A stretch of 58,006 bases of DNA from Bdellovibrionia bacterium (GCA_030432925.1 JAUILT010000005.1:1-58006), one strand, 5' to 3'; numbered from the stretch's first letter, positions 20,546-55,679 are shown. Translations and numbers: made by a program. The notes: generated by a model not told the origin, from the letters alone.

Positions 20546-22959
20546 AGAAATCAATCATTGCTGGGAAACTTCCATTTTTTAAGTTTGAAGATCACACGAT
20601 GGTCTATACCGATGGATCTTTAGGTGTTGGCTTTAATTTGGGTGGGTTTGATGCTCACTGCGCATCAGTGGATGCCATCAACCCATTTTGTCAGAAAATT
20701 GAGAGTCTAATTGTTGGTCTGGGGCCGAATTTGCGATTGCAAGTATTTTACAAACTTTCTGGGGAGGCCGACGAAGTTGTTGGTGAACATCTTAAGGCAT
20801 CAGAAAAATGTGAAAGTTCCTATCAGCCGATCAGGAAAGCCAGGGGCAAGTTTTTGAAGAAGAAGATTGAGGAGGGTGAGTTTTTCGTGCCTCAAATCTA
20901 TTTTTTTCTTCGAAGCGAACCGCTTAAGTTTAAGAAGAGCAAACTTTTTGAAAAGAAATCGCAATCGGTGGTCTTTCCAGAAAAAGAGTTCGAGCTTCAC
21001 AAGGAGAAGTTTTATACGCTGGTTGCCCAAGTGGAAGAAGCTTTGAGGTCATGTGGGCTGGGTCCAAATAGACTACTAAAGTCTGACTGGTTTGACCTAT
21101 GTTTTTCCCACCTCAATTTTGATCGTTCAGAAAACGTGGGCACTGCCACCTTGAGAGACGACAGAGATCCACTCTCACCCAGCCTTGGTGAGCAGCTGGG
21201 ATTGACAAACATCAGCGTGTTTAAACAACATCTAGAAATAGGAGATTTAAAGTTTCGCTGCATTAGTATGGGTTTACTCCCCGAGGGGGAAACCCAAAGC
21301 TCAATGATTGAAAGCCTATTGGGTTTGCCTTTTCATTTCTGGCTATCTCAAAGCATTAAAACTCTCGACCAAAAAACTCAGATTGAAAAATTGGAGTTGA
21401 TGAGACGAGTTGCCAATTCAATGGTATCTGGAAGCCAAAATGTTTCTGACATTGAGAGTGAGTCAAAACTGTCGAGTCTCGAAGATTTATTACGAGACCT
21501 TATGAATGGCTCAGAGAAACTGGTTTCGTCTGATATGACGATCACAATTTGGGGAAAATCTATTGAAGAGTTAGAACTAAAGACCGAGGAAGTTTTGCGA
21601 GCGTTTCGCTCGATGGGGCAAGCGGAAGGGTTGGTCGAGACATTTGCATTGGAAGATGCTTTCTTTAAAAGTATGCCTTCAGTTTGCGAAGGCTTTCGGC
21701 ACAAAAAGATGAAGTCGAGCAATTGTGCTCACCTAATGCCACTATTCTCGTCATGGATGGGAAGCAAAAGGCCGGTGGTCATGCTTTCTAACCGTGAGGG
21801 AGCACCGTTTTCAATTGACCCATTTGCTAAAGAGCTGCCCAACTGGAATGGCCTCATATTCGGAGGATCTGGGGCTGGCAAATCTTTTAGTATTTCTCAA
21901 TTGATGCTGCATTTCTGCGGGCAAGATCCAAAGCCTAAAATCGTCTGGATAGATAACGGTGCCTCCAGCGAGAAGCTGGTTGAAGTCATGGACGGAGAGT
22001 TTCTTGATCTTCACCTAAAATCTGGTGTGTGCCTCAATATGTTTGATCTTGAGCACGGCGAAACAAAACCCTCATCGGCGAAGATTAAACTCATACTCGG
22101 TTGTCTTGAATTGGTTTTAAAAGATGAGGACAAGCCAGGACTCCCTAAGCGAGACAAAGGCCTTTTAGAAGAAGCCATTTTTGATTGCTACGAGTCCGTC
22201 AAAGAGCGAGTGCCAAGGTTGTCGGATTTAAAGAGTATCTTGTCGGATCATCCCGTTTCTGAGATGAAAAAGTATGCAGATATTTTATACTCATGGACGG
22301 GCGACACGGCTTACGGGCGAATGCTTGATGGTGAAACAAATGTAAAACTCAGCAAGGATCTGGTGTCGATTGAGGTCAAGGGTTTGGAGAACTACCGCGA
22401 ACTCAAAGACATTCTTTTGCTGTTATTGACTTCACACATTAAGGATGAGGCAGCAAGCGATCTGTCTCGGCCTTATTTATTGATTTGTGATGAAGCCCAA
22501 AGGTTGTTTAAAGGCTCAGCGATGGGTCGTGAGTTTGCCATTGATTGTTTTAGGGTTTTCCGAAAGTACAACGCAGGGATCTGGTGCATTAGTCAAAACT
22601 ATAAAGATTTTTTGTCGGACCCAGACCTAGCGGATTCACTTATGCCCAACACGACCTTTCTGTTCATTCTAAGGCAGCGAAAAATCTCCTGGGAAGAATT
22701 TAAAACAACATTTGACTTCAACGATGCACAAGTGGAAGCGGTCAAAAGCCTCGACATTGTGAAGGGAAAGTATTCCGAGTTTTTCTTGCTTCAAGATGAG
22801 GACCAGGCAGTAGTGAGACTTGAGCCAGAGCCCTTGAGCTACTGGATCTGTACGACTGATGGGGCTGACAAATCAAAGGTATCGGCTTTAAGAGAGAAAG
22901 ACCCTTCTCGTCCCTTGATTGATATTTTGTCGGAGTTATCCAAAGGAGGGTTCAATTAA
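20542..22959 (+). CDS. virB4: VirB4/TraC-family T4SS ATPase (ICE1)
   Basis: 805 aa, the usual length. The N-terminal domain associates with the inner-membrane complex; the C-terminal ATPase has Walker A GGSGAGKSFS (about residue 442), Walker B YLLICDEAQRLF (about 645) and the conserved block KYADILYSWTGDTAYGRMLDG. It powers pilus biogenesis and substrate transfer. The gene is intact here, in contrast to ICE2, where the homologue is split. It overlaps VirB3 by 4 bases and the proposed VirB5 start by 5. Confidence 0.93.
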   Translation: MKKSIIAGKLPFFKFEDHTMVYTDGSLGVGFNLGGFDAHCASVDAINPFCQKIESLIVGLGPNLRLQVFYKLSGEADEVVGEHLKASEKCESSYQPIRKARGKFLKKKIEEGEFFVPQIYFFLRSEPLKFKKSKLFEKKSQSVVFPEKEFELHKEKFYTLVAQVEEALRSCGLGPNRLLKSDWFDLCFSHLNFDRSENVGTATLRDDRDPLSPSLGEQLGLTNISVFKQHLEIGDLKFRCISMGLLPEGETQSSMIESLLGLPFHFWLSQSIKTLDQKTQIEKLELMRRVANSMVSGSQNVSDIESESKLSSLEDLLRDLMNGSEKLVSSDMTITIWGKSIEELELKTEEVLRAFRSMGQAEGLVETFALEDAFFKSMPSVCEGFRHKKMKSSNCAHLMPLFSSWMGSKRPVVMLSNREGAPFSIDPFAKELPNWNGLIFGGSGAGKSFSISQLMLHFCGQDPKPKIVWIDNGASSEKLVEVMDGEFLDLHLKSGVCLNMFDLEHGETKPSSAKIKLILGCLELVLKDEDKPGLPKRDKGLLEEAIFDCYESVKERVPRLSDLKSILSDHPVSEMKKYADILYSWTGDTAYGRMLDGETNVKLSKDLVSIEVKGLENYRELKDILLLLLTSHIKDEAASDLSRPYLLICDEAQRLFKGSAMGREFAIDCFRVFRKYNAGIWCISQNYKDFLSDPDLADSLMPNTTFLFILRQRKISWEEFKTTFDFNDAQVEAVKSLDIVKGKYSEFFLLQDEDQAVVRLEPEPLSYWICTTDGADKSKVSALREKDPSRPLIDILSELSKGGFN

Positions 22960-23659
22960 CCAGCTTAAAAAAGTCAGTGTGATAAGTCTGCTTTGCATGG
23001 CATTGGTCATGCCGGTGAAGTCCCAGGCTTTTTTTACCGATGGTTCCGGTTGGGCTGCGGTTGGCTACTTAGTCAAAATTCTAGAAGAGAATTACAGAAG
23101 GTACTTGCAGCTCAAACATATGATGGACACAGCGAGCGGTCATTATGATTACATCAGAGCTTTGAATAAGGGCTTAGAGAATTCAATAGGTCTCTTGGAG
23201 TCACTGCCCGTCAAAGATGATGAGGTTCTGGGAAGGCTAAAATCATTTAGACAGGCCGTAGGTCATATCGAAAATCTGTACGGGAAAATCCCGAAGAGTC
23301 CAGAAGAGGCTCTTCATAGACTTCATGATGAATCGGTGGCCGAGAGCCTCAGAATGGCAAATGCGTTTAAGGATTTTTCAGAAAGCCAGGAGAAAAACTC
23401 CCAAAAAATGAGTGTGCAAGCCAGGAGAGCATCTCCGAAGGGTGCCGCTCGTATGCAGGTACAAAGCAATGCGGAGATATTGAGAAGTCTCTCGCAGTTG
23501 ATTCGCTTGAATACCCAAATGCTTAAGCTTCAAAGTGAGCAATTGGCTATTACCAATAAGGCGGCCAAGGACAACGTGAGCCGTTATCAGAAGGTCTCAA
23601 CAGATTTGGGAAGAGGGTTTTCAAATTTTGAGCCGGAAATGGGGTTTATACGATTTTAA
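22955..23659 (+). CDS. virB5: VirB5-like protein with a probable AUU start (ICE1)
   Basis: About 234 aa. A signal peptide (VSVISLLCMALVMPVKSQA) is followed by a long helical region (residues 45-225), as in VirB5/TrbJ minor pilus proteins; it matches the ICE2 protein at 48765 (GLLESLPV, ASPKGAARMQ / MSPKGAVRSN, LKLQSE). No ATG, GTG or TTG stands at the right distance. A strong aaaggaggg (22942-22950) precedes ATT at 22955, giving INQLKKVSVIS. A TTG at 22919 would add 12 residues of polar sequence before the signal peptide and lies deep inside virB4. I therefore call ATT. Confidence 0.8.
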   Translation: MNQLKKVSVISLLCMALVMPVKSQAFFTDGSGWAAVGYLVKILEENYRRYLQLKHMMDTASGHYDYIRALNKGLENSIGLLESLPVKDDEVLGRLKSFRQAVGHIENLYGKIPKSPEEALHRLHDESVAESLRMANAFKDFSESQEKNSQKMSVQARRASPKGAARMQVQSNAEILRSLSQLIRLNTQMLKLQSEQLAITNKAAKDNVSRYQKVSTDLGRGFSNFEPEMGFIRF

Positions 23660-24619
23660 ATGTTTAACTATTTATCTGGTGTCGGTGCAGAACTTCATTT
23701 GCAGATGGTCAGTGTGTTTTGGGTGCTATTAATTCCATTCTTAGCATTCTTGATGGTATTGGAAATTTTAAAAGAAGAAGATCCAAACATTAAAGGTCTT
23801 CTCAGGCGAGTGGTCATCTCCATCATATTGCTACTTAGCTTTGATTGGACGATTGATGCTATTGCCACAATTGGCGATGCCGTAACTGAAAGAATTGATG
23901 GGCTTCAACGGCTTTCCGATGTTTTAGCGAATCTGGGGCCAAATTATTCAGGAAAAGACAGTTGGTTCAATGTACGAGAGACAATTTTGTATGTCTTCAG
24001 CATAGTGGCTTACCTTATTGCCTACTTAGGCTTTTTTGTAGCAACGGCATTGACCCACTTTGTATGGACAATTCTATATGTTGCAGCCCCAGTAATGATT
24101 CTCATGTACCTGAGTCCATCTACGGCTCACGTTACAAAAAGCCTCTATAAAGGTCTTGTGCAGGTGGTGATTTGGAAAGTGCTCTGGAGTCTCCTTGCAA
24201 TTTTGCTACTAAAACTAGCAATTCAGCCGGAGGTTTCTGGAATGGAGGACTACATCATGTCGCTGGTCGTGAATCTTTGCATTGGGTTTTCAATGTTGTT
24301 TATCCCGATTGCCACAAGATCACTTGTGTCTGATGGAATGAGTTCGGTTGCAGGAACTCTAGCTGCGGTTCCCACAATTGCAGCCGGTGGTGCTGTCAAG
24401 ATGGCAGCTACGAGGTACGGTGGCAAAGCACTAAAAGCTGCGCAGTTTGCAGCCAAGCCCGCCACCAACCCAATTGCAGGACGAGTAGAAATGTTGAAAA
24501 ACCGAGTTAAGCCTCGGTTCGAACGGTTAAAGAAGAATTATGGCTCCATTGGACTTCCTGAAGAAGTCAGAAAGAAAAGAGCCAGTAAAATCAATAGGAG
24601 AAATAGAATTAAGAGATGA
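23660..24619 (+). CDS. virB6: VirB6-like polytopic membrane protein (ICE1)
   Basis: 319 aa. About six hydrophobic segments (VFWVLLIPFLAFLMVLEIL, VVISIILLLSF, IVAYLIAYLGFFVATALTHFVWTILYV, LWSLLAILLLKLAI, LVVNLCIGFSMLFIPIA) and a positively charged C-terminus, as in VirB6/TrbL/TraG-N channel proteins. It starts directly after the VirB5 stop. The ICE2 homologue is at 49457. Confidence 0.85.
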   Translation: MFNYLSGVGAELHLQMVSVFWVLLIPFLAFLMVLEILKEEDPNIKGLLRRVVISIILLLSFDWTIDAIATIGDAVTERIDGLQRLSDVLANLGPNYSGKDSWFNVRETILYVFSIVAYLIAYLGFFVATALTHFVWTILYVAAPVMILMYLSPSTAHVTKSLYKGLVQVVIWKVLWSLLAILLLKLAIQPEVSGMEDYIMSLVVNLCIGFSMLFIPIATRSLVSDGMSSVAGTLAAVPTIAAGGAVKMAATRYGGKALKAAQFAAKPATNPIAGRVEMLKNRVKPRFERLKKNYGSIGLPEEVRKKRASKINRRNRIKR

Positions 24620-25212
24620 ATAACGAATCAAAGAATACGGTGCCAAATATTTGGCTTGCGCAGGAAAATACTATTCGAGTTTATAAGTTGATCGCTATAG
24701 GACTAAGCATTCTTTCAGTTGTGCTGATGTCCACTGTGGTGGTGATGAGCTTTAGTGATCCAGTCGTTGTTAGTGAAACCTCTGAACAGTTGAAGTTTTA
24801 CCCGAGCAAAAAAGCTCCTGCGACGATTGGAGAGAAAGAAATCAAGAGTTTTAGCGAGGAGTTTTTGCGGCGGTTCTATGTCTGGTCAAGCTTCGATCCA
24901 GAGGCTCTAAAAATCGAGATCTCTCCTTTGACTGAGGAGAACTTAGTAAAAAAAGCTGTGGCTGCCCAGTTAAAAAAATATGGGTCGAAGGACTTTGCTG
25001 GTAAGAAAATCGCACAGGCGATTACATTTGTGAGAGTCAATGTGTTTGAGGACCGAGTTGAGTGTCTGTTTGATAGAGTTTTAAAAATTGATGGTCTACC
25101 TCTAGTGATTCCAACCACCATGACGCTATCTTTGCTGAAGGGTAAGGCAAACCGACTGAACCCTATGGGTGTTTATGTTGTTGGAATCAACGAGAGTGAG
25201 GGAATCAATTAG
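24616..25212 (+). CDS. virB8: VirB8/TraE-like protein (ICE1)
   Basis: 198 aa with one N-terminal TM (about residues 24-46, LIAIGLSILSVVLMSTVVVMSF), then a periplasmic alpha/beta domain (LKFYPSKK ... SFSEEFLRRFYVWSSFDPEAL ... VNVFEDRVECLFDRVLKIDGLPL). Length and topology fit TraE/VirB8 assembly factors. Overlaps virB6 by 4 bases. The ICE2 counterpart is at 50458. Confidence 0.8.
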   Translation: MNNESKNTVPNIWLAQENTIRVYKLIAIGLSILSVVLMSTVVVMSFSDPVVVSETSEQLKFYPSKKAPATIGEKEIKSFSEEFLRRFYVWSSFDPEALKIEISPLTEENLVKKAVAAQLKKYGSKDFAGKKIAQAITFVRVNVFEDRVECLFDRVLKIDGLPLVIPTTMTLSLLKGKANRLNPMGVYVVGINESEGIN

Positions 25213-25213
25213 A

Positions 25214-25951
25214 ATGTTAATGCTGTTGATGTGCATGACTCTGATGTGCCCAAATCTTATGGCTGGGCCACCAGGGGAAAAAAGGACAATTCTCACATCT
25301 GGAGAAAAAGTTTATACCATTAAGTATCAACTGGGACAAAGTACAGTGTTGTACTTTGGTGAACAGCCTCAAACTGTGATCTGCGGGAATAAGAACTACT
25401 TCAATATTGAAAAGATCAAGGGAGGGATTACGATTCAGCCTCTATCGAATATTTCAACTAATCTGACCGTTTTATCTGGCGGCAGAAGATATTTGTTTTA
25501 TCTGACACCTTCTGGCCGGAGAAAATCTGACGGTTTTGTTGAAGTGAGATGGGTTCCAAAGGCTGCGACCAAGCCAGTGAGATCAAAAGTGGAAGTGGAC
25601 CAATCTTACAAGGTCAATGAGATTGGCTCTCACTTAAAATTGAGCCCTAGCCTAGAGTTTTCGGTGCTGAATGAAAAGTGGCTGGACAATGATGGTAGAC
25701 AAATTTTTGAGCTGAGGTTGAAGAATTCGAGCCGTGCTAGAATCTCAACTGGTAGCATTGAGGTTATCGCCGCTTCAAAAGGCAAACCGATTAAAAAACA
25801 AGTGCTCGTCTGGGAAATGCAAAAGCTTTCAAAAGGTCAAGTGACGATGGGGAGACTTATTGTGACTGAAAAGGTCAATGGCCCCATGAGAATTTTAGTT
25901 GGGTTTAAAGGTAAAACAACAGAGCTTGTGATTGGGAGAAAGTATCGCTAG
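25214..25951 (+). CDS. virB9: VirB9/TraK-like secretin-associated protein (ICE1)
   Basis: About 245 aa. ATG 25214 sits one base after the previous stop and gives a signal peptide (LMLLMCMTLMCPNLMA). The N-terminal half shows the family patterns VYTIKYQLGQSTVLYFGEQ and ISTNLTVLSGGRRYLFYL; the C-terminal half is beta-rich. It would form the outer-membrane core complex with VirB10 and the lipoprotein. The ICE2 homologue is at 51048. Confidence 0.8.
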   Translation: MLMLLMCMTLMCPNLMAGPPGEKRTILTSGEKVYTIKYQLGQSTVLYFGEQPQTVICGNKNYFNIEKIKGGITIQPLSNISTNLTVLSGGRRYLFYLTPSGRRKSDGFVEVRWVPKAATKPVRSKVEVDQSYKVNEIGSHLKLSPSLEFSVLNEKWLDNDGRQIFELRLKNSSRARISTGSIEVIAASKGKPIKKQVLVWEMQKLSKGQVTMGRLIVTEKVNGPMRILVGFKGKTTELVIGRKYR

Positions 25952-26861
25952 CTGGAAAGCGCGGGCAAGCAGGGTATTTCTAGTTGAGAGTGGTGGGAAA
26001 AAAATATTGGTTGCAAAGAAGGTCGGCATTTATCTGGCCGGCCTTTTTCTTTTGGCTACAGCAATCCTGGCTTGGCTTGGTCCAACAGAGGACATAACTC
26101 ACTACTCGCAGTCCCACGGAACTGTCGAGGATAGTGACAGCAATAGAGAAGGTTCTAGTGCAACGGATGATGTGGCAAATCTGTTTGGGCAAGGAGAGGC
26201 CAAAAGGAAAAGAGATGCAGAAAATCAACGAAGAGCAAATAGTAAGAAGAAAAGTAGCATCAAGTATTTTACATCACAGTTGATTGGTTCTGACGCAGAG
26301 AAAGCAAAGACTATGCTATCTGGCTCGAAGCTTCTTGGCGTCCTTTTGAACCCAATCGACACTAGGGCTGACAGCCCTGTGAGGGCAAAAGTCATCCGAG
26401 ATGCAGCCAGCGGAGGTCTGATGATTGAAAAAGGCTCGGTTCTTGTTGGTCGCTTTTCTTATTCAGGTTCTGGAGATCGGGTTCGAATTGATTTCGACCG
26501 AGTTGTTTCCTCATCAGGAAAGGCCAAAAAAATAAGTGCCCAAGCTCTCGATGCGTCAAGTTTCACCGCAGGAATCACAGGTGAAGCTTTTTCAGAAGAA
26601 GGTATCAAAATAGCAAGTCAGCTTGGCCTTTCCATGTTTTCTGGCATGGCCGACGTTCTCACAGAGAAGGAGTCACTTGGTTTCGCACAAGGCTCTATTC
26701 AGGCAAAACCCACTATGAAGAACGCTCTCTTACAGGGGCTATCGGGTGCAGCAAGGGATCAATCTCAAAGAACAGCTAGAGATATCGAATCACTTAAGGA
26801 GTATGTTCTGGTGGAAAAAGGCAAGGAACTCATCATCGAACTAACGGAGGACTACAAATAG
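25944..26861 (+). CDS. virB10: VirB10/TraB-like core-complex protein, start uncertain (ICE1)
   Basis: About 305 aa. A cytoplasmic basic N-terminus and one TM (VGIYLAGLFLLATAILAWLG) are followed by a variable linker and the conserved beta-barrel domain (VLLNPIDTRADSPVRAKVI, MIEKGSVLVGRFSYSGSGDRV, then QAKPTMKNALLQG and a terminal KGKELIIELTEDYK). No ATG is available. ATC 25944 stands 5 bases after GGGAG; TTG 25932 is the alternative but has no ribosome site. The ICE2 homologue starts at a normal ATG overlapping virB9. Confidence 0.8.
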   Translation: MASWKARASRVFLVESGGKKILVAKKVGIYLAGLFLLATAILAWLGPTEDITHYSQSHGTVEDSDSNREGSSATDDVANLFGQGEAKRKRDAENQRRANSKKKSSIKYFTSQLIGSDAEKAKTMLSGSKLLGVLLNPIDTRADSPVRAKVIRDAASGGLMIEKGSVLVGRFSYSGSGDRVRIDFDRVVSSSGKAKKISAQALDASSFTAGITGEAFSEEGIKIASQLGLSMFSGMADVLTEKESLGFAQGSIQAKPTMKNALLQGLSGAARDQSQRTARDIESLKEYVLVEKGKELIIELTEDYK

Positions 26862-28387
26862 AAAACAATAACAATGCTGGAAACAACAAATTTTTGAATA
26901 TCATTGGAGATGCTTTCACATTTATTGTGCAATTCTCATTTGGGGTGGTGTGGAGAGGCCTTTGTCGAAGCTGTACATGGAAGCGCAAATATGTCGTTAG
27001 ATGGACTGTCTATCTGACTTGGCTCATCGTGGTGACTCTGGGTCCAGCCTGGAGTCTCGGCTATATAATTTGGTCGATCTTCTCATGGATTAAGATGGAA
27101 GGAGTTGGTATCTGGGTTGCCGAATCGGTGCATGAATCGGCCTTGGTGAGCCTACTATTTCTGCCGCCGTTTCTTTTATGGTTGGGAGCTAGAGGCTACA
27201 AAGACTGGAGCCTTGTCAGAAAATATGACTCAGCCATCAAACACTTAGGGCTTAAAACGCCCACTGGTATCAAGCCGACGGTATTGAAAGTGATTGAACT
27301 TGAAAACCACAGAAAGCGAGTGATTGTTCAGGCTGTTGGAATTGATGTGAAGTCCTTTAGAGACAAAAAGGGATCAATTGATTCGAGCTTCAATACAATT
27401 GTGCAAGATATCTCGGTGTCAAAGGGCAACCGTCAAAATGTTGAGATTTTAATTTCAGACAAAGAGCTGCCATCCCTTGTCACATTTGAAAGTCGCAAGA
27501 ACAGATTGAAGAAACCGTATTCGTTTTTAGTTGGTGAGAGTTTTGACAATTTCATCGTTGCCAATCTATGCGATATTCATCATCTGCTTGTTGCTGGAAC
27601 AACTGGTGGGGGTAAAAGTTATTTCTTTAAACAAGCGATAACGGGACTTCTGAAGTCATCACAGCATATTCAAGTTTATCTTATTGACCTCAAAAAAGGT
27701 GTTGAGACAAGACCATTTCGTGATCTTCAGAATGTGCGAGTTGCTAAAGATGAACCATCTGCCATCACCTACCTCCAAGCCGTTGTGGATGAAATGAATC
27801 GACGCTTTGATTTTCTTGAAGAGAAAGGCTTCAACGAGATTGATCCGGCGAGAGATGGTTTTGACAGGATTGTGGTGGCAGTAGATGAGGCCTCCAATCT
27901 TTTCACTCTTTCTAAAAGTTCAAAAGAAGTGAAGGATCGTTCAATTTTGGCCCGTGAGTTGACAGACAAGATTGCCAAACTTGGGAGAGCTGCGGCCATA
28001 CATTTGATTTTGGCAACCCAAAAAGTTGTCAAAGATACTATTGACACACGAGTTCAGACAAACATCAACGCGAAAGTCTGCTTTAAGGTCAACAGCATCC
28101 CTAGCTCAACCACAGTGCTTGGAAACAAGAATGCTTTTGAACTTCCGAGTACAAAAGGCCGAGCCATTTGGTCTTATGGAACAACAGAGCTGATTGTGCA
28201 GGTCCCAAGACTGAATCCAGATGAGTTAAATGCCGAGATCGAGTTGCTGAAGAAGAAGTTCAACACTCCGAACTCTCCAGTCAAGATGCCAATGCTTTCC
28301 GTTGGGGTTCAGAAGAAAAAGAAGAATCCCAATGTGCAGATAAATGACCAGGACATTGAAGAAGTAGACGTTGAGGAAAGCAAGTGA
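26858..28387 (+). CDS. FtsK/TraD-like coupling ATPase with a probable AUA start (ICE1)
   Basis: About 509 aa. N-terminal membrane part (WTVYLTWLIVVTLGPAWSLGYIIW and ALVSLLFLPPFLLWLG), then a FtsK/HerA-type motor: Walker A LVAGTTGGGKSYF (about residue 245), Walker B RIVVAVDEASNLF and sensor LILATQKV. It likely delivers DNA to the VirB channel. The frame is open upstream of TTG 26894. CGGAGG lies 8 bases before ATA 26858, which overlaps the virB10 stop (aaATAGaa), and alignment with ICE2 (start 52780) favours this longer N-terminus. TTG 26894 has no ribosome site. Confidence 0.85.
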   Translation: MENNNNAGNNKFLNIIGDAFTFIVQFSFGVVWRGLCRSCTWKRKYVVRWTVYLTWLIVVTLGPAWSLGYIIWSIFSWIKMEGVGIWVAESVHESALVSLLFLPPFLLWLGARGYKDWSLVRKYDSAIKHLGLKTPTGIKPTVLKVIELENHRKRVIVQAVGIDVKSFRDKKGSIDSSFNTIVQDISVSKGNRQNVEILISDKELPSLVTFESRKNRLKKPYSFLVGESFDNFIVANLCDIHHLLVAGTTGGGKSYFFKQAITGLLKSSQHIQVYLIDLKKGVETRPFRDLQNVRVAKDEPSAITYLQAVVDEMNRRFDFLEEKGFNEIDPARDGFDRIVVAVDEASNLFTLSKSSKEVKDRSILARELTDKIAKLGRAAAIHLILATQKVVKDTIDTRVQTNINAKVCFKVNSIPSSTTVLGNKNAFELPSTKGRAIWSYGTTELIVQVPRLNPDELNAEIELLKKKFNTPNSPVKMPMLSVGVQKKKKNPNVQINDQDIEEVDVEESK

Positions 28388-29127
28388 TGGGTATTGCGAT
28401 ACAAAGCAGGGATCGAAAGGTTTTGAAATTTGTATTCAGTTACCGTGTTGTCACTTTTGAGCAGATAAGCAGAAAGTTTTTTGCAAAAAGCCATTTTACA
28501 ATTGCCTCAAGAAGGGTCAGGAAGATGGTTGAAGAAAGATTACTTAAGCAGATTCCTTCACACAAAGATGGAAGACTTATTAAGTGTCTAGGTATCACTG
28601 AAAAAGGATTAAAACTTGTTTGTGAGGACTGGGAATTTGAGATCGACAACCCCTACTTTAAGAGTGAGTCTCCAATCCATGATTTTCACTTGGCGGAGCT
28701 TGGAACAAGGTTTGAGTCGTTGACTCTCTTTGAACATTTTTACCCAGAGAATCTACTACAATCCTCGACAGCTTTTCAAGGCGATCCAATGTTTCGTGAC
28801 TTGGTTCGTTTAAATTCTGACGCGGTTCTATTGCTAAAAGATCAAAATGGCGATCAGCTTGTGTATGCCGTTGAGTACGAGGCGAGCAAGAAATCTCCAA
28901 GCCGCTACGTTGACAAGCTTGGGAGCTACTATCAAGTCGGAAGTATTGATGGCCTCCTATATATCTGCTCATCACAAATGATCGCGGATGCGGTTGCACG
29001 AGCAGACAAACAAATTTGCAAACAAGACGAGTCATTTGTGTATTTGACCACAGAGGAAGATGCACTCAAACCATCCAAGAAGTTGATCTTCAGAGGGACT
29101 AAAGGTGGAGGAATAAGATTATATTAA
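28387..29127 (+). CDS. Replication-relaxation family protein (ICE1)
   Basis: 246 aa resembling PF13814. N-terminal winged-helix (DRKVLKFVFSYRVVTFEQISRKFF ... RRVRKMVEERLL), then HDFHLAELGTRFESL and RLNSDAVLLLKDQNG ... YAVEYEASKKSPSRYVDKLGSYYQ, a pattern recalling a nuclease-like fold with D...E-x-E residues. Some members of this family are reported plasmid relaxases in Bacillus; no classical MOB relaxase is present here, so this is the best relaxase candidate. Starts in a TGATG overlap with the coupling gene and is followed by an inverted-repeat region. Confidence 0.65.
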   Translation: MGIAIQSRDRKVLKFVFSYRVVTFEQISRKFFAKSHFTIASRRVRKMVEERLLKQIPSHKDGRLIKCLGITEKGLKLVCEDWEFEIDNPYFKSESPIHDFHLAELGTRFESLTLFEHFYPENLLQSSTAFQGDPMFRDLVRLNSDAVLLLKDQNGDQLVYAVEYEASKKSPSRYVDKLGSYYQVGSIDGLLYICSSQMIADAVARADKQICKQDESFVYLTTEEDALKPSKKLIFRGTKGGGIRLY

Positions 29128-29141
29128 GCAAGTTTGGGGGG

Positions 29142-29189
29142 TGCCTACAGCTAGGCAAGTACCTGCCTTTTAGGTGCCTATTGGTAGGC
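29142..29189. other. Candidate oriT: twin inverted repeats (ICE1)
   Basis: TGCCTA-CAGC-TAGGCA (29142-29157) and GCCTA-TTGG-TAGGC (29176-29189) are two hairpins sharing the same arms, with a further GCCT in between. They lie in the only gap of the transfer operon, just after the putative relaxase gene. ICE2 has a different inverted repeat at the same place. Confidence 0.4.
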
Positions 29190-29363
29190 GAGCAAAAAGC
29201 TGTCAAGGGATTGAAATCATTGAAATTGAGATGTTTGAGAATTGACGGGGTCATAGGATTTAAAGTTTTGATGGAATGTTTGGAGTTGAGGCGATGGGTT
29301 GACGAGCTGGCGAAGGAATTTGGAGGAACAAGTGAGTTACGAATAATAAATAAGGAGACGACT

Positions 29364-29774
29364 ATTAGAATAAAAATTATTGCCGGATTGATTTTGTGTG
29401 CGCTGCTGAGTGGGTGTTCAACATTAAAAGAGTCTTTGATTCTTGGAGCTGGTTCAGGTGTTGCAATAGGTGCAATAGCCGGTGCTCAGGCTCCTGGTGA
29501 TAGAGGTGAGAATTCTATAAAAGGAGCGGTACTTGGTGGAGTAGCTCTGGGACTTACCAGCTACATCATCCACAACAGCCTCACGAAAAGAGATGAGAAA
29601 ACTCGGCGAGAGACCTTGATGAATCTGCAGCATTACGATGTTCTAGGCTTCGAGGGTATCTCAAATAAAAAGAATGGCTACAAGAATGAGAACTGCTTTT
29701 CCACAGAAAGAGTGGACGGAAAGCTTGTTTCGATTCCTTGCAGCTTGGCCGGTGAAGGAGTGAATGGGCAGTGA
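29364..29774 (+). CDS. Glycine-zipper lipoprotein with a probable AUU start (ICE1)
   Basis: 136 aa. Signal sequence RIKIIAGLILCALLSGC ends in a lipobox (LLSGC), so the protein is an outer-membrane lipoprotein, possibly the VirB7/TraV part of the core complex. A glycine-zipper segment follows (GAGSGVAIGAIAGA ... GAVLGGVALGL). No ATG/GTG/TTG gives a proper signal peptide: AAGGAG at 29352-29357 stands 6 bases before ATT 29364. An ATG at 29272 would place 30 polar residues ahead of the signal sequence. The ICE2 homologue has the same arrangement (55203). Confidence 0.75.
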   Translation: MRIKIIAGLILCALLSGCSTLKESLILGAGSGVAIGAIAGAQAPGDRGENSIKGAVLGGVALGLTSYIIHNSLTKRDEKTRRETLMNLQHYDVLGFEGISNKKNGYKNENCFSTERVDGKLVSIPCSLAGEGVNGQ

Positions 29775-46003: not shown

Positions 46004-46320
46004 TGGGTCTTGATCGGTCAGTAGTTCATAGAAACTTGGACTCCAAAGTCAAAATCGCAGGGATGGAACTTTTCGACATCATCACCGTGGGGGCATTTGC
46101 CTCCACGATGAACCTCATCTTTGGACAAACCAATATGGCAGGGATCATGGTGTTTGGGCTTCCCGCCCTTTTAGCCTTTGTCATTTATTTAGGAAAGAAA
46201 GGAAAGCCAGAGAGGTATTTACAAGACCTTATCCGGTTTTCTGTATTTCCGGGGGTCTTTTGCGTCGGTGAAGAATTGAGCAATGAAACAAGGAGGCGGC
46301 AAGTTGTCGTTAAGTCCTAA
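46003..46320 (+). CDS. virB3: VirB3-like protein (ICE2)
   Basis: 105 aa from ATG 46003, overlapping the pilin stop by one base. VVHRNLDSKVKIAGMELFDI aligns with ICE1 TIYRNLDAKFKIGGVDASDL; two hydrophobic stretches and KKGKPERYLQDLIRF follow. It runs about 13 residues longer than the ICE1 protein at the C-terminus, over the start of VirB4. Confidence 0.85.
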   Translation: MGLDRSVVHRNLDSKVKIAGMELFDIITVGAFASTMNLIFGQTNMAGIMVFGLPALLAFVIYLGKKGKPERYLQDLIRFSVFPGVFCVGEELSNETRRRQVVVKS

Positions 46321-47701
46321 TAGCATCGGTGATTTTTTAAATTTGTGGCATTTCTTTGATGACCATCTCGTCTTTGGCGATGGTTCCATTGGATGCGGTT
46401 TTCGTCTTCAGGGAAAAGATATTTCTTGTGCAACCGAGGAAGAGGTCAATCAGTTCACAAGAAAACTTGAAAACCTTATCACCAGTCTTGATGAGGGACT
46501 GTCTTTACAGTTTTTCTACAAGCTGACATCCAATGTGGAAAACACGATTGAATCCCATAAAATCTTGTCTCAGAGCTGTCCACTTGACAACTATGATTTG
46601 ATTTTGTCTGCCAGAGAAAATCATTTACGAGATAAGATGGGGCGAGGTCATTTCTTTAGACCTGAAATCTATCTGTTTCTTCGTGGGCAAAAGTTTTCAT
46701 TCAAAAAAAAGGGGCTTTTTCAAAATGAAAAAGAGTTCACCCAGATTCAAGAAAGTGAATTTAAAACTCATTTGGAAAACTTTGAGAGATCCATCAGCCA
46801 ATTGGAGTCATCCCTTCGAGATTGTAATCTATTGGGGGATCGACTTTCAAAAGATGAGTGGTTCGGCCTTTTGTACGAGCACTTCAACTTATCGCGCTCT
46901 GAAAAGCACGACCCACCGGCTTTAAAGGGGCCAAAGGTCTTTTCTCCAAGCTCACTGTTATCTCAATTGTTACTGAGTGATGTTTCTTTGGGAAAAAAGC
47001 AGATTGAAATTGGTGATTGTAAGTTTCGCACCATTTCGCTTAAGACATTGCCCGATGAGACTCATGCAGGACTTATCAATGGGCTTTTAGGCTTGTCGTT
47101 TCACTGTTGGATTTCTCAGGTCGTTAGAATTTGTGACCAGTCCAAGGAATATTCATCTTTGCAACTGAAGCGGCGGGTGGCTCATTCCATGGCCAGTGGT
47201 CAGAGTAATGTGAGTGACCTAGAGAGTGAGTCTAAGCTTGGGCAAATCGAGGGGCTTTTATCAGAGCTGATTGAGAGTTCTGAGAAAATTGTGGAATCCG
47301 ATCTAAGCGTTGTTGTCTGGGGTAAAACCGATGTGGAACTTGAAGAAAAATGTGATGAAGTTCTAAGGACTTTTAAAAAGCTCAACCACTCTGAAGGACT
47401 CGTTGAGACCTTTGCCACGTTTGATGCTTTTATCAAAGTGACCCCCGGAGTGTGTGGGATGAATCGTCCTAAAAAAATGAAGTCGTCAAACTTTTCACAC
47501 TTGGTCCCAAGTTTTTCCTATTGGATGGGGAACAAAAAACCAGCTTGTCTTTTACCCAATCGTGACAATGTTCTCGTCTCAGTGGACCCTTTTTCGCCGG
47601 AGCTACCCAACTGGAATGGGTTTATTATTGGATCGAGCGGATCGGGGAAATCCTTCAGTATTAACCAATTGATTTTGATGTTCATAGGGGATCAGACATG
47701 A
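46304..47701 (+). CDS. virB4: VirB4 N-terminal part including Walker A (ICE2, split gene)
   Basis: About 465 aa. I choose TTG 46304 because AAGGAGG lies 7 bases upstream and the spacing to VFGDGSIG then resembles ICE1; ATG 46283 is the alternative. It matches ICE1 VirB4 throughout (VAHSMASGQSNVSDLESESKL, ELPNWNGFIIGSSGSGKSFSINQL) but stops at TGA 47699-47701, some 15 residues after Walker A. The rest is encoded by the overlapping frame at 47698. Confidence 0.85.
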   Translation: MSLSPNSIGDFLNLWHFFDDHLVFGDGSIGCGFRLQGKDISCATEEEVNQFTRKLENLITSLDEGLSLQFFYKLTSNVENTIESHKILSQSCPLDNYDLILSARENHLRDKMGRGHFFRPEIYLFLRGQKFSFKKKGLFQNEKEFTQIQESEFKTHLENFERSISQLESSLRDCNLLGDRLSKDEWFGLLYEHFNLSRSEKHDPPALKGPKVFSPSSLLSQLLLSDVSLGKKQIEIGDCKFRTISLKTLPDETHAGLINGLLGLSFHCWISQVVRICDQSKEYSSLQLKRRVAHSMASGQSNVSDLESESKLGQIEGLLSELIESSEKIVESDLSVVVWGKTDVELEEKCDEVLRTFKKLNHSEGLVETFATFDAFIKVTPGVCGMNRPKKMKSSNFSHLVPSFSYWMGNKKPACLLPNRDNVLVSVDPFSPELPNWNGFIIGSSGSGKSFSINQLILMFIGDQT

Positions 47702-48768
47702 GTGCTCATTCCCAAGGATTTTCAAAATCAAAAGTGGTTTGGATTGACAACGGAGCCTCGTCAAAGGGGCTTGTTGACTCTCTTGGCGGACAGTTCATTG
47801 ACCTCGCCCTTGATAGCGGTCTTGTTCTCAATGCTTTTCAACTGGATTCTGGTGAAACCCAAGTGTCACCGACCAAAAAGAAGCTTCTTCTGGGAGTTAT
47901 TGAATCCATTTGCAAAGAGGATGATTCAAAAGGGCTTCCAAAGAGGGAAAAAGCCCTTTTAGAGCAAGCCATTGCGGACACCTACGATCAAAAGAAGGGT
48001 CAGTCACCGACCATGAGCGATTTTAGGAAGGTTTTGGAAAATCACCGTCTTGAAGAGATGAGAAAGTATGCCGACATTTTGTATTCATGGACTGGAGACA
48101 CGGCTTATGGAAGGCTTCTTGATGGGCAAACCAACATTGAACTTTCAAAGTCTCTGGTTTCCATTGAAGTTAAGGGTCTTGATGTTTACCCTGACTTGCA
48201 GCGTGTTCTATTACTGATTCTCACTGAATACATAATGAATGAGGCATCAAAGAACCCCAGTCAGCGGTATTTGTTAATTGTTGATGAGATTTGGAAGGTG
48301 CTGCAAAACGACAGTGCTGCCCAGTTCATTATTGAGTGCTACCGTACAATGCGCAAATTTTACGGGGGCATTTGGGGAATCTCCCAATCCATCAAAGATT
48401 TTATGTTCGACCCGGAAATTGCTGCGGCCATTATGCAGAATACTCCCAGTCGAATCATTTTAAAGCAGCGTGGTGTTGATTGGGAGGAGTTTCAAAATAT
48501 TTTATCTCTGAATGATACTGAGATTGAAGCGGTCAAGTCTCTTCGCTCAGAAAAAGGACGTTTTTCGGAGCACCTATTTATTCAGGATGAGAACAAGGCC
48601 ATTTTAAAAATTGAGCCAGATCCACTTTCTTATTGGATCTGTACCACCGATCCAAAAGACAAAGCGGTCATTAACGAATTTAAAGAAAAATATCCACACC
48701 TCAATCATTTGCAGGTTTTGGAGAAAATTACCCAGTTTCAAAAAATAAAGGAGGAGAAACCTAAGTGA
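47698..48768 (+). CDS. virB4: VirB4 C-terminal part including Walker B (ICE2, split gene)
   Basis: 356 aa starting at an ATGA overlap with the first half. After about 12 unmatched residues it aligns with ICE1 VirB4 from KVVWIDNGASS onward: MRKYADILYSWTGDTAYGRLLDGQ, Walker B YLLIVDEIWKVL (about residue 190), and PDPLSYWICTT near the end. Either the protein works as two chains made by translational coupling or a small insertion has broken the gene. No other residue loss is apparent. Confidence 0.85.
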   Translation: MSAHSQGFSKSKVVWIDNGASSKGLVDSLGGQFIDLALDSGLVLNAFQLDSGETQVSPTKKKLLLGVIESICKEDDSKGLPKREKALLEQAIADTYDQKKGQSPTMSDFRKVLENHRLEEMRKYADILYSWTGDTAYGRLLDGQTNIELSKSLVSIEVKGLDVYPDLQRVLLLILTEYIMNEASKNPSQRYLLIVDEIWKVLQNDSAAQFIIECYRTMRKFYGGIWGISQSIKDFMFDPEIAAAIMQNTPSRIILKQRGVDWEEFQNILSLNDTEIEAVKSLRSEKGRFSEHLFIQDENKAILKIEPDPLSYWICTTDPKDKAVINEFKEKYPHLNHLQVLEKITQFQKIKEEKPK

Positions 48769-49457
48769 AGATTCTAATAACCCCATTGTGTGCCATTACA
48801 ATTGCCTTAAGTCCCGTCAAGAGTCACGCCATGTTCGGTGCCGACGCTGCGGCGATGATACCTTACCTAATTAAGATTATTACTCAGGCAATCAAGCAAT
48901 ATAAGCAGATGAAAATAATTTATAACAATGCAAAACATCATAAGGAAATGTTTAAGCAACTCAATGACGGTCTGTCGGAAGCCATTGGTCTTTTAGAAAG
49001 CCTTCCCATTGAGGATGAGAATATTTTAGGTCATTTGCAATCATTCAAGAAAGCCATGAACGAAATTGAAATGCTCTATGGTGAGGTGCCAAAAGGCAAA
49101 GAGGAGATGCTTTTAAAGCTCCACGATCAAACTGTGGCTGAAAGTATCAAAATTGCCAATTCGCTCAAGGTGTATGCAAAGTCCCAAGAGGCCAATTCTA
49201 ACCGAGTGGCTAGGAATGCTGGGAGGATGAGCCCCAAGGGAGCTGTTAGAAGCAACCTTGAAACTAATGCAGCGATCTTGCACACCCTTAACCAGTTATT
49301 AAAAGTAAATGGGCAAATTTTAAAACTCCAGAGTGAAACTTTGGCAATGAATAATAAGTCAGCTAAAGAGTCCAATTTTCACTTTCAAAAAGTCACCAAA
49401 GACCTTGGCAGTAGCTTTAAGGGATTTGAAGCAACATTTGGGACACCGACGTTTTAA
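48765..49457 (+). CDS. virB5: VirB5-like protein (ICE2)
   Basis: 230 aa from GTG 48765, 4-base overlap with VirB4, after aaggaggag. Signal peptide (KILITPLCAITIALSPVKSHA), then long helices with KQYKQMKIIYNNAKHH and SPKGAVRSNLETNAAI. In ICE1 the homologous gene has ATT in the equivalent place. Confidence 0.82.
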   Translation: MKILITPLCAITIALSPVKSHAMFGADAAAMIPYLIKIITQAIKQYKQMKIIYNNAKHHKEMFKQLNDGLSEAIGLLESLPIEDENILGHLQSFKKAMNEIEMLYGEVPKGKEEMLLKLHDQTVAESIKIANSLKVYAKSQEANSNRVARNAGRMSPKGAVRSNLETNAAILHTLNQLLKVNGQILKLQSETLAMNNKSAKESNFHFQKVTKDLGSSFKGFEATFGTPTF

Positions 49458-51761: not shown

Positions 51762-52780
51762 AAATTCAAATAAAAAAATGGTTTTCATTGGTTAAAAAGG
51801 CTCCATCTCAGTTGAGGGCTTGGCTTAAAGGCTTGGTGGAAAAAGTAAGGTCTCCATTCGTTAAAAGGTTTCCAGATAAGGAGACTTGGAATCTTGGAGC
51901 CATACTTATTTGGGGTGCAGCCACATTTTTAAGTGTTGTTTTCGTTAGTAGCTTGTTTTTTTCACCTGAAGATTCCGGTAGCAGCATTACCACTGTCTAT
52001 TCAGCTAAAGCTGAAGACCAAGGCAGTGATGTGGAAGGTCTTAGCGAATCAGATGGTGAGGCTTCAGCTCATGTGAAAGGCATTTCCAAAGGGCGGGGCC
52101 ATCGTCTTTCTGGGGATGATCCCGCACCGAGGAAAGGAAAAGGAGCTTCCATTAAATATAAGGGAACCCAAGTCTTGGTACGAGCCAGCTCTCAAGGAGA
52201 CCGCGCCCTTCCAACGGGGACCAACTTTGTTGGAAAGCTTCTCTCACAAATTGACACCCGTCACTCTGATAAATTTGTGAGAGTTCTTTTGCCCTTTGGT
52301 GGAAAATTCAGGGACCGAGTCGGTATTCCAAAGAATACCGTTCTTTTGGGCTCGGTCAGCTATTCTGGTCGAGGCAAAAGGGTTTTCTTGAACCTCCACA
52401 CCGGAGTTCTGCCCGACGGGAGCGAGATTAAAATTGAGGCCACCGCCATGGACTCAAAAGACTTCTCGCCCGGTCTTATAGGTAGCTATCACAGTGCATT
52501 TGGTAGCAGGGCTGGAGCCACACTTGGCTTCTCATTTGCTGCTGGTGCCAGTGATGTGTTGCAGGAAAGGGAAGCTCTCGGTCAGGGCTTTAACCAAACC
52601 GTTACCAAAAAAGCCACTATGAAAAATGCTGTTCTCAACGGCATCTCTGAGTTTTCAAAGACAGAAGGAGCATTTCAACTAGAAGAGGCTCGCAATGAGG
52701 GAGCCTACGTCACACTCAATCAGGGTAAAGAGGTCATCGTTACCCTCACTAAAACTTTTAAAAATGGAGAATCAAATTAA
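51758..52780 (+). CDS. virB10: VirB10/TraB-like protein (ICE2)
   Basis: 340 aa from ATG 51758, 4-base overlap with VirB9. Basic cytoplasmic N-terminus, TM (LGAILIWGAATFLSVVFVSSLFF), linker, and conserved domain (GKLLSQIDTRHSDKFVRVLLP, PKNTVLLGSVSYSGRGKRVFL, KKATMKNAVLNGISEF, a terminal QGKEVIVTLTKTF). Confidence 0.85.
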   Translation: MKIQIKKWFSLVKKAPSQLRAWLKGLVEKVRSPFVKRFPDKETWNLGAILIWGAATFLSVVFVSSLFFSPEDSGSSITTVYSAKAEDQGSDVEGLSESDGEASAHVKGISKGRGHRLSGDDPAPRKGKGASIKYKGTQVLVRASSQGDRALPTGTNFVGKLLSQIDTRHSDKFVRVLLPFGGKFRDRVGIPKNTVLLGSVSYSGRGKRVFLNLHTGVLPDGSEIKIEATAMDSKDFSPGLIGSYHSAFGSRAGATLGFSFAAGASDVLQEREALGQGFNQTVTKKATMKNAVLNGISEFSKTEGAFQLEEARNEGAYVTLNQGKEVIVTLTKTFKNGESN

Positions 52781-54279
52781 TGAGTAAGAAATCAAATGGT
52801 ATTGATCCAAAAGATATTGTTATTGGAATCGTGAACCTTTTCAAAGGTGCAATAAGTTACACTTACTATGCAGGGAAGGAATCAAAATACCTCTCTCGCG
52901 CTGGAAAAGTGAACCTGTTGTTGTTTTTTGCAATAGCGGTGGTCTGGTCTATTAAAAACACCCATTTTTGGACATTGCACTATTTTTGGCCCGACATTTT
53001 CACCCAACAGTTTGTAAGAAACGTCGGCATGATGTCGTGGTTTGCGCAATTCCTTCCGTTGGGGGTTCTGTTCTTTGCGATTACTGTCTATATATTAGGA
53101 AATCGCAGTATCAGTAAAATTGAAGGAATCAATAGTGGTTTCAAACGAGCTGGGATTAAAAATGCAATTGGCAAACACCCCTTTGTCAAAGAGCTAACCA
53201 ATTTAACCCCGTTTCGGCAAAAGCTTCTTATTGATACCGAGGGCGTTCCCGCAGAAGAGTTTGAAAGCAAGAGAAATTACATTCGCTCCTGTGTGAACTC
53301 ACAGGTGGAGGCCATTGTTGAACAAGATGAGCCCAAGTTCATTGAGTTGTTCTTAACAAAGAAACTCCTGCCAAAGAAAATTGCTTACGCCAATGTATCT
53401 GGGAAAGCATCAAAGGCCGGGGACTTTGTTGTTGGTCAGTCGTATGGCCGAGTTGTGACTCAAAACCTTTTCGACCTTCCGCACATGCTGGTGGCTGGAA
53501 CCACGGGTATGGGGAAATCCTACTTTCTTCGCCAGATGGTCCTCAACCTTCTTGAAAACACACCAAATCTTCAGGTTTTCGCTATTGATCTAAAGGAAGG
53601 TATCACCATGCGGCCATTCAAGGATCTTCCCAATGTGAAAGTCGTCAAAGAGATTTCTGAAGCTTCAGAAGTCCTTGAAAAGATCAGGGCTGAAATGAAG
53701 GAACGTTTCAAGGTGTTGGAAAAAGAAGGAGCCGAACTCATTGATCCTGTAAAGCACAAAAGAGATCCCATCTTGGTTGTGATTGATGAGTGCTCACTTC
53801 TTTATAACCCATCGAAGGTTTCAGAAATCGGCAAGAAAGCAGCTCAAAAGGCCATTGAGATCACCGACGAGATCGCCAAATTGTCACGAGCCGCCTGTAT
53901 TCATTTGGTGCTTGGTACTCAGAAGATCACCAAAGAAACGGTCAGCACCCACATTCAGGAGAACATTGAGGGGCGAATCTGTTTCAAGGTCACTTCTGTC
54001 CAAGGCTCGGCAATGGTTGTTGGAACTAAGATTGCCCGTGATCTGCCAAAAATTAAAGGCCGAGCCATTGCCAAGTTTGGTGTGGATGTCGATGAGGTCC
54101 AGACCCCTTTTATTGATAAGGATGAAATCAAAACCAAGATAAGTGCTATTGGAAAACGGTTTGAGGGAAAAAAGAAGCCTCACCAGCAGCCACTTATTTC
54201 GGATATTTCTTATCAAGAAAAATCAGATAAGGGAGATGTTGCCGACTCTTCAAGGCCGAAAGTGGGGCCATCAACGTGA
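52780..54279 (+). CDS. FtsK/TraD-like coupling ATPase (ICE2)
   Basis: 499 aa. Two membrane segments (VNLLLFFAIAVVWSI, FAQFLPLGVLFFAITVYIL), then Walker A LVAGTTGMGKSYF (about residue 237), DLKEGITMRPFKDLPNVKVV, Walker B ILVVIDECSLLY and LVLGTQKITKETV. Homologous to the ICE1 protein at 26858; its ATG start supports the longer ICE1 N-terminus. It overlaps the VirB10 stop by one base. Confidence 0.88.
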   Translation: MSKKSNGIDPKDIVIGIVNLFKGAISYTYYAGKESKYLSRAGKVNLLLFFAIAVVWSIKNTHFWTLHYFWPDIFTQQFVRNVGMMSWFAQFLPLGVLFFAITVYILGNRSISKIEGINSGFKRAGIKNAIGKHPFVKELTNLTPFRQKLLIDTEGVPAEEFESKRNYIRSCVNSQVEAIVEQDEPKFIELFLTKKLLPKKIAYANVSGKASKAGDFVVGQSYGRVVTQNLFDLPHMLVAGTTGMGKSYFLRQMVLNLLENTPNLQVFAIDLKEGITMRPFKDLPNVKVVKEISEASEVLEKIRAEMKERFKVLEKEGAELIDPVKHKRDPILVVIDECSLLYNPSKVSEIGKKAAQKAIEITDEIAKLSRAACIHLVLGTQKITKETVSTHIQENIEGRICFKVTSVQGSAMVVGTKIARDLPKIKGRAIAKFGVDVDEVQTPFIDKDEIKTKISAIGKRFEGKKKPHQQPLISDISYQEKSDKGDVADSSRPKVGPST

Positions 54280-55037: not shown

Positions 55038-55058
55038 TGGATTCTTTGAGTCTTAGGG

Positions 55059-55100
55059 TATTGCAAAAGCTGTTGCGTAAGCTATTGCAAGTTGCAATAG
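55059..55100. other. Candidate oriT: TATTGCAA repeats and palindrome (ICE2)
   Basis: TATTGCAA occurs at 55059-55066 and 55083-55090; the second belongs to the perfect palindrome CTATTGCAA-G-TTGCAATAG (55082-55100). It lies in the same gap after the relaxase candidate as the ICE1 inverted repeats at 29142. Confidence 0.4.
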
Positions 55101-55202
55101 GCAAAGTTCGCAAAGAAAGATGGAAGCTGTTGAATTTATTCGTATTTGATATTTAGGAACATTTTTATAACTGAATACAATATACCTATAAGGAGGTACA
55201 AG

Positions 55203-55679
55203 ATTAGAAGTATTACGAGAACCATATTGTGTGTCATTATTTTGGGAAGTTTAGGGTGTGCAAGTGTTGAGAGATCAACATTCTTGGGGGCAGGGACAGG
55301 TGCAGCTATGGGAGCAGCTACAGCATCAGCAATGGCCAACAAAGATCATGGACAAGTAACTTTGAGGGGCGCTGGTATTGGTGCTTTAGTGGGAGGTATC
55401 ACAGGATATATTCTGCACAGGGTGATTGATAAAAAAGAGAGCCAAGTTCGCAAGGAAACTCTTTTCAATCTGGAATCCCATGGAATATCCACAGGCTTTG
55501 GCGGTATTGATCTGAAAAAGTTTGATACCTTTGTGTCGTCACCACAGGTGCGTGAAGATTATATCGAGACTCACACTGTTGATGATGGCCGAAAACTTAT
55601 TCAAGGACACAAGACTTGGACGATCATCGGGAATCCACAGTTCAACATTGGTAGCCCAAAGAGAAGAAAGAAACGATGA
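55203..55679 (+). CDS. Glycine-zipper lipoprotein with a probable AUU start (ICE2)
   Basis: 158 aa. Signal sequence RSITRTILCVIILGSLGC with lipobox GSLGC; glycine-zipper segment GAGTGAAMGAATASAMA ... GAGIGALVGGITGYIL. A near-perfect TAAGGAGGT (55189-55197) stands 5 bases before ATT 55203; the upstream in-frame starts would add a polar N-terminus before the signal sequence and lack a ribosome site. The ICE1 homologue at 29364 has the same ATT in the same relation. Probable VirB7-type outer-membrane lipoprotein. Confidence 0.75.
   Translation: MRSITRTILCVIILGSLGCASVERSTFLGAGTGAAMGAATASAMANKDHGQVTLRGAGIGALVGGITGYILHRVIDKKESQVRKETLFNLESHGISTGFGGIDLKKFDTFVSSPQVREDYIETHTVDDGRKLIQGHKTWTIIGNPQFNIGSPKRRKKR

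Follow-up and report, generated by a model that had tools for sequence, protein, structure and literature searches.

Probable AUU, AUA and AUC start codons recur in the transfer operons of Bdellovibrionota conjugative elements

Near-cognate start codons are commonly regarded as a curiosity of one or two chromosomal genes. The infC gene starts with AUU, AUC or AUA and is autoregulated through IF3, while E. coli pcnB and orfB of IS911, which is also a mobile element, start with AUU. A 58,006-nt contig of a Bdellovibrionia bacterium (the window, one of 172 contigs of the host genome G000) raises the question of whether several genes of one transfer operon can begin in this way and, if so, why. 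A sequence-only reading of the window had proposed AUU, AUC or AUA (hereafter AUN) starts for four such genes, and we find all four codons at the positions it gave (Table 1).

The window carries two integrative elements, ICE1 and ICE2, with homologous transfer operons. Pfam matches in these operons include TraG P-loop/CagE (VirB4), TrbI (VirB10), FtsK_SpoIIIE (the coupling ATPase, called VirD4) and Replic_Relax, together with TrbL (VirB6) and CagX (VirB9), which score under Pfam's own cut-off. Homologues of VirB4, VirB6, VirB9 and VirB10 are found with a translocation ATPase in one operon, the composition of a VirB/VirD4-type operon. The VirB5-like protein is named from its position and signal peptide and gave no match in the Pfam search; the lipoprotein is similar to the glycine-zipper N-terminus of YiaD-type lipoproteins.

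Table 1. Coordinates of the elements, putative start codons and Shine-Dalgarno (SD) sequences in the window
Element	Feature	Position	Strand	Remark
ICE1	Integrative element with transfer operon	~19.5-30.2 kb		
ICE1	VirB5 SD (AAAGGAGGG)	22942..22950	+	within virB4 3' end; 7-nt match AAGGAGG, spacing 5
ICE1	VirB5-like gene, ATT start	22955..23659	+	ATTAA overlap with virB4 stop TAA; AUN at equivalent site in 15 relatives
ICE1	VirB10 weak SD (GGAG)	25935..25938	+	spacing 4
ICE1	VirB10 gene, probable ATC start	25944..26861	+	adjoins virB9 stop (ATCGCTAG); alternative TTG 25932
ICE1	Coupling ATPase SD (GGAGG)	26845..26849	+	spacing 7
ICE1	Coupling ATPase (FtsK/SpoIIIE type), ATA start	26858..28387	+	ATAG overlap with virB10 stop TAG; equivalent in L064 is ATGA
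ICE1	Lipoprotein SD (TAAGGAG)	29351..29357	+	spacing 5
ICE1	Glycine-zipper lipoprotein, ATT start	29364..29774	+	upstream gene not overlapped
ICE2	Integrative element with transfer operon	~45.3-56.0 kb		
ICE2	VirB5, GTG start with SD AAGGAGG	48765..49457	+	comparison: weak but canonical
ICE2	Coupling ATPase, ATG start	52780..54279	+	comparison
ICE2	Lipoprotein SD (TAAGGAGGT)	55189..55197	+	
ICE2	Lipoprotein homologue, ATT start	55203..55679	+	38% identical to ICE1 lipoprotein

The strong SD claimed for each of the four ICE1 genes is found at VirB5, the coupling ATPase and the lipoprotein, but not at VirB10, where the match is limited to the four bases of GGAG. For the first three genes we also agree that no credible ATG, GTG or TTG stands at the right place. 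The alternatives for VirB5 (TTG 22919 and GTG 22979) and the sole one for the ATPase (TTG 26894) are without an SD. Ahead of the lipoprotein there are upstream TTGs, of which the distant TTG 29181 has a 5-nt SD match, and a canonical codon does exist near the position of 29272 cited earlier; it is an in-frame ATG at 29271. A start at this ATG would place 31 residues ahead of the lipoprotein signal, and such a start is excluded in four relatives (L061, L062, L064 and L084) by stops 6-10 codons upstream of the lipoprotein start. A leader peptide overlapping the ICE1 lipoprotein start was considered and rejected, because a stop interrupts its frame 4 codons upstream. From sequence comparison we regard the AUN starts of VirB5, the coupling ATPase and the lipoprotein as real with high confidence. 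VirB10, already the least certain of the four calls, remains weaker than the others given its 4-nt SD and the possible start at TTG 25932, itself without an SD; here we lean slightly towards the ATC.

To what extent are these codons shared with related elements? A coupling ATPase search of 197 related genomes yielded 60 loci, and profile searches with VirB5 and the lipoprotein in the order (141 genomes) and the phylum (369 genomes) added 20 more; start codons were compared in around 40 related operons of the phylum. Viral contigs and plasmids yielded no relatives. The automatic start caller misplaced VirB10 and VirD4, whose N-termini are poorly conserved, and gene junctions were taken instead. 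In the family near ICE1 and ICE2, AUN starts are found at VirB5 in 16 of 36 called members, at the lipoprotein in 14 of 35 and at the coupling ATPase in four (ICE1, L061, L062 and L303). VirB10 has them in about 16 members, several with a weak SD of just 4 nt. Start calls in general draw partly on SD strength. The check proposed in the earlier reading, inspection of homologous elements for AUN codons at the same sites, finds them at all four genes among relatives and at the lipoprotein in ICE2, and the clustering within one type of transfer operon recurs, in up to four genes.

ICE2 adds a case absent from the sequence-only reading: its lipoprotein has TAAGGAGGT followed by ATT 55203, with no supported alternative start. 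Its ATPase starts with ATG and its VirB5 with GTG, unlike the ATA and ATT of ICE1. The lipoprotein has ATT in both elements of the window despite 38% protein identity, and ATT or ATA in 12 relatives. Many relatives have ATG, GTG or TTG at the equivalent sites, which shows that these genes can do without the weak codon.

Several relatives leave little room for another start. In L064, a stop lies 9 codons upstream of the lipoprotein start and the next canonical codon lies past the lipobox, while in L070 and L294 ATG, GTG and TTG are all absent near the VirB5 start; in these three cases there are zero canonical codons from the upstream stop to the signal peptide body. The ICE1 ATPase start, GGAGGACTACAA-ATA-GAA, aligns with GGAGGACTACAA-ATG-AGC in L064, such that the 12-nt leader is identical and the codon differs. 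At VirB10, L061, L062 and L064 have an ATT overlapping the virB9 stop. Isolated AUN-like starts were also seen at virB8 of L294 (ATA after AAGGAG) and at virB9 of L063 (ATT overlapping a TAA stop).

We then compared these frequencies with background. Picking the single best SD position blind to the codon proved unfit because the second in-frame codon after the SD was often taken, and it was replaced by a window test covering spacings of 3-10 after the SD. Where the SD had at least 6 bases and no canonical codon stood at these spacings, the family had an AUN codon more often than chance would give, in 14 of the 18 windows at VirB5 and 13 of the 14 at the lipoprotein; background AUN is about 7% per codon, or roughly 15-20% per window. 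Because the sequences share ancestry, these counts do not stand for independent cases and show conservation rather than many separate events. Codons beside strong SDs numbered 10/3/0 for ATT/ATA/ATC in the ICE-family loci (expected 2.0/0.5/1.1). We found no AUN excess in the chromosomal genes sampled from G000 and a second genome, G113, where the counts were 1/0/1 in both (443 genes, expected 2.0/0.5/0.8, and 379 genes, expected 0.6/0/1.7, respectively). This control, which is noisy, drew on 40 G000 contigs and 400 kb from G113, about 820 genes, called with a home-made gene finder. More distant T4SS loci had zero AUN starts at VirB5, VirB10, VirD4 and the lipoprotein. SDs of at least 6 bases are common ahead of VirB5 and the lipoprotein, whereas VirB6, VirB8, VirB9 and the relaxation protein seldom have them.

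The host provides a positive control. In its infC gene (contig C3, locus L001, near 1217), AAGGAG is followed by an ATC start, and AUN starts behind an SD are seen in 26 of the 30 infC genes examined in the host genome and relatives; the method therefore detects known AUN starts. The host encodes IF3, its infC is built in the way that IF3 autoregulation requires, and its 16S 3' end carries a normal anti-SD (CACCTCCTTT). As in infC, the AUN codons of ICE1 lie at a conserved start position, and VirB5, the ATPase and the lipoprotein share the strong SD at proper spacing (VirB10 has its 4-nt match only). infC differs in being one housekeeping gene of the chromosome that takes part in a feedback loop, whereas the genes described here are several mobile-element transfer genes, none of them encoding IF3.

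A second feature concerns the gene junctions. Where VirB5, VirB10 or the ATPase has an AUN start, that codon shares one or two bases with the stop of the preceding gene (ATAA, ATAG, ATTAA or ATTAG) in 25 of 34 cases overall (12/16, 10/15 and 3/3, respectively). These overlaps stand in place of the ATGA of relatives, the start and the stop switching identity jointly. Canonical VirB10 starts also overlap the stop, as ATGA, GTGA or TTGA, in 13 of 20, so the overlap is conserved though start and stop vary. In ICE1, the geometry of reinitiation (an overlap of 1-4 nt with an intragenic SD) is found at VirB5 (ATTAA) and VirD4 (ATAG); the stop at VirB10 lies 5 nt downstream and the lipoprotein start has no overlap. 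According to the available parts of two sources (PMC12548453, PMC6728339), NTGA is the usual termination-reinitiation motif. The junctions here resemble those ATGA pairs in overlap geometry and in the SD inside the upstream gene, but those parts do not describe ATAA, ATAG, ATTAA or ATTAG overlaps with an AUN start. Avoidance of TGA as the cause of ATAA and ATAG was rejected, given the ATGA overlaps elsewhere in the same operons (VirB8). This arrangement suggests that coupled reinitiation is part of the cause at VirB5, VirB10 and VirD4. It is not the whole explanation, because none of 12 lipoprotein AUN starts has an overlapping upstream gene.

What, then, could keep these codons in place? The codon positions, their SDs, their conservation, the overlaps and the lack of credible alternatives are observed; from them we infer initiation at AUN, attenuation, IF3 control and reinitiation. 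The explanation that we consider best, and likely, combines near-cognate starts behind strong SDs with IF3 proofreading and, at three junctions, reinitiation. VirB5, VirB10, the coupling ATPase and the lipoprotein would begin at AUU, AUA or AUC, read by initiator fMet-tRNA. The strong SD would place the 30S subunit and IF3 would proofread the weak codon-anticodon pair, so that each mRNA would yield little protein, in amounts that change with the supply of IF3 as they do for infC. Where the start overlaps the stop, as it usually does at VirB5, VirB10 and the ATPase, the SD could retain the ribosome after termination and let it reinitiate in place; coupling of this kind can tolerate a non-AUG codon. 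The damping and the link to IF3 suggested in the earlier reading fit with the strong SDs and with a host infC of like design.

By analogy, the four proteins may be held at a low, IF3-sensitive level, since the same design attenuates expression in Staphylococcus aureus and IF3 represses sigR in Streptomyces. The available part of the S. aureus report (PMC13009471) gives about 10% of AUG expression for AUU/AUA starts with an extended SD, and up to 30% for ccpN in rich medium. The genes concerned, cvfC1 (AUU), ccpN (AUA) and citZ (AUA), combine a near-cognate start with an extended SD as here, and those of cvfC1 and ccpN are conserved in staphylococci; they are single chromosomal genes with measured attenuation, and that part of the report describes neither a stop overlap nor an operon-wide pattern. 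Streptomyces sigR likewise has a rare start codon, an extended ribosome binding site (AGGAGGTG) and repression by IF3, but its codon is GTC and it encodes a chromosomal sigma factor (PMC5472188). The view that AUN starts are known mainly from infC and pcnB needs to be widened by these later precedents.

A wider version, which we put forward tentatively and consider rather doubtful, is that the transfer genes form an IF3-governed translational regulon. Their yield would be set jointly by the host IF3-to-ribosome ratio, and the element would read the translational state of its host, limiting or releasing assembly of the secretion machine, while reinitiating ribosomes would take the overlapping AUN codons as legitimate starts.

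An alternative that we judge unlikely accepts the codons as real and attributes them to coupling and not to damping. If the junctions are fixed as 1-2-base overlaps, an upstream TAA or TAG leaves only ATA or ATT for the overlapping start, which would be accepted with little loss by a ribosome that reinitiates. The frequency of overlap given above agrees with this, as does the joint switch between ATGA and ATAG/ATAA/ATTAA; moreover, one study cited in the available part of a review (PMC12548453) found coupling reduced by IF3 overexpression. Coupling by itself leaves the lipoprotein starts aside, as it does the VirB5 AUN starts of L070, L294 and L296, which are without overlap, and the VirB8 junctions show that TGA is not avoided in these operons.

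Neutral drift, in which the identity of the start codon hardly matters behind a strong SD and AUG and AUN exchange without regulatory meaning, would account for the mixture of AUN, GTG, TTG and ATG within the family. We consider it improbable. On a VirB5 tree built without the N-terminus, with start labels assigned by hand from junction listings, the AUN label requires 4 changes compared to about 12 for shuffled labels. ATT, ATA and ATC interchange inside AUN clades and, in those of ICE1 and ICE2, do not revert to ATG; VirB6, VirB8 and VirB9 have canonical starts and no strong SDs, and the sampled chromosomal genes have no excess. Finally, it is very improbable that the AUN codons are internal and that the canonical codons present in ICE1 (TTG 22919, TTG 25932, TTG 26894, and ATG 29271 or the TTGs) are the real starts, since these have no well-placed strong SD apart from the 5-nt match at the distant lipoprotein TTG, are not conserved, are missing altogether in several relatives and would harm the signal peptides.

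On the favoured explanation of near-cognate initiation under IF3 proofreading, what is new is that near-cognate starts are used by several genes together, are carried on mobile elements and are conserved; at VirB5, the ATPase and the lipoprotein these starts are very probably real. pcnB and IS911 orfB are single genes outside any transfer operon; here, AUN starts recur in up to four genes per operon and in many diverged elements of one phylum. The arrangement predicts that IF3, the start-codon proofreading factor of the host, limits the transfer machinery. If confirmed, this would give a host factor a translational route to cap conjugation, and AUN stop/start overlaps would join the known coupling motifs. 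It would also reveal a systematic error in gene calling, as tools restricted to ATG, GTG and TTG truncate, extend or miss these genes.

A further unusual start concerns VirB5 of two elements in genome G255 (L304 and L305). No ATG, GTG, TTG or AUN start with an SD was found there, and AAGGAGGTTAAC-TTT-AAA/AGA stands ahead of the signal peptide. A UUU start is possible; this combination of TTT and SD may be coincidental, because this SD falls within an apparent methyltransferase-like ORF upstream.

The VirB4 of ICE2 (46283-48768) consists of two ORFs with an ATGA overlap just past the Walker A motif. As relatives L082 and L084 are split alike, we take it to be a natural split ATPase and not an assembly error. 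On another contig (C10, locus L073) the host genome carries a third member of this family, a partial one, whose lipoprotein starts with ATG. The stretch that separates the relaxation-protein gene from the lipoprotein contains direct and inverted repeats, at 29140-29192 in ICE1 and 55052-55106 in ICE2; they are candidates for an oriT or a regulatory site.
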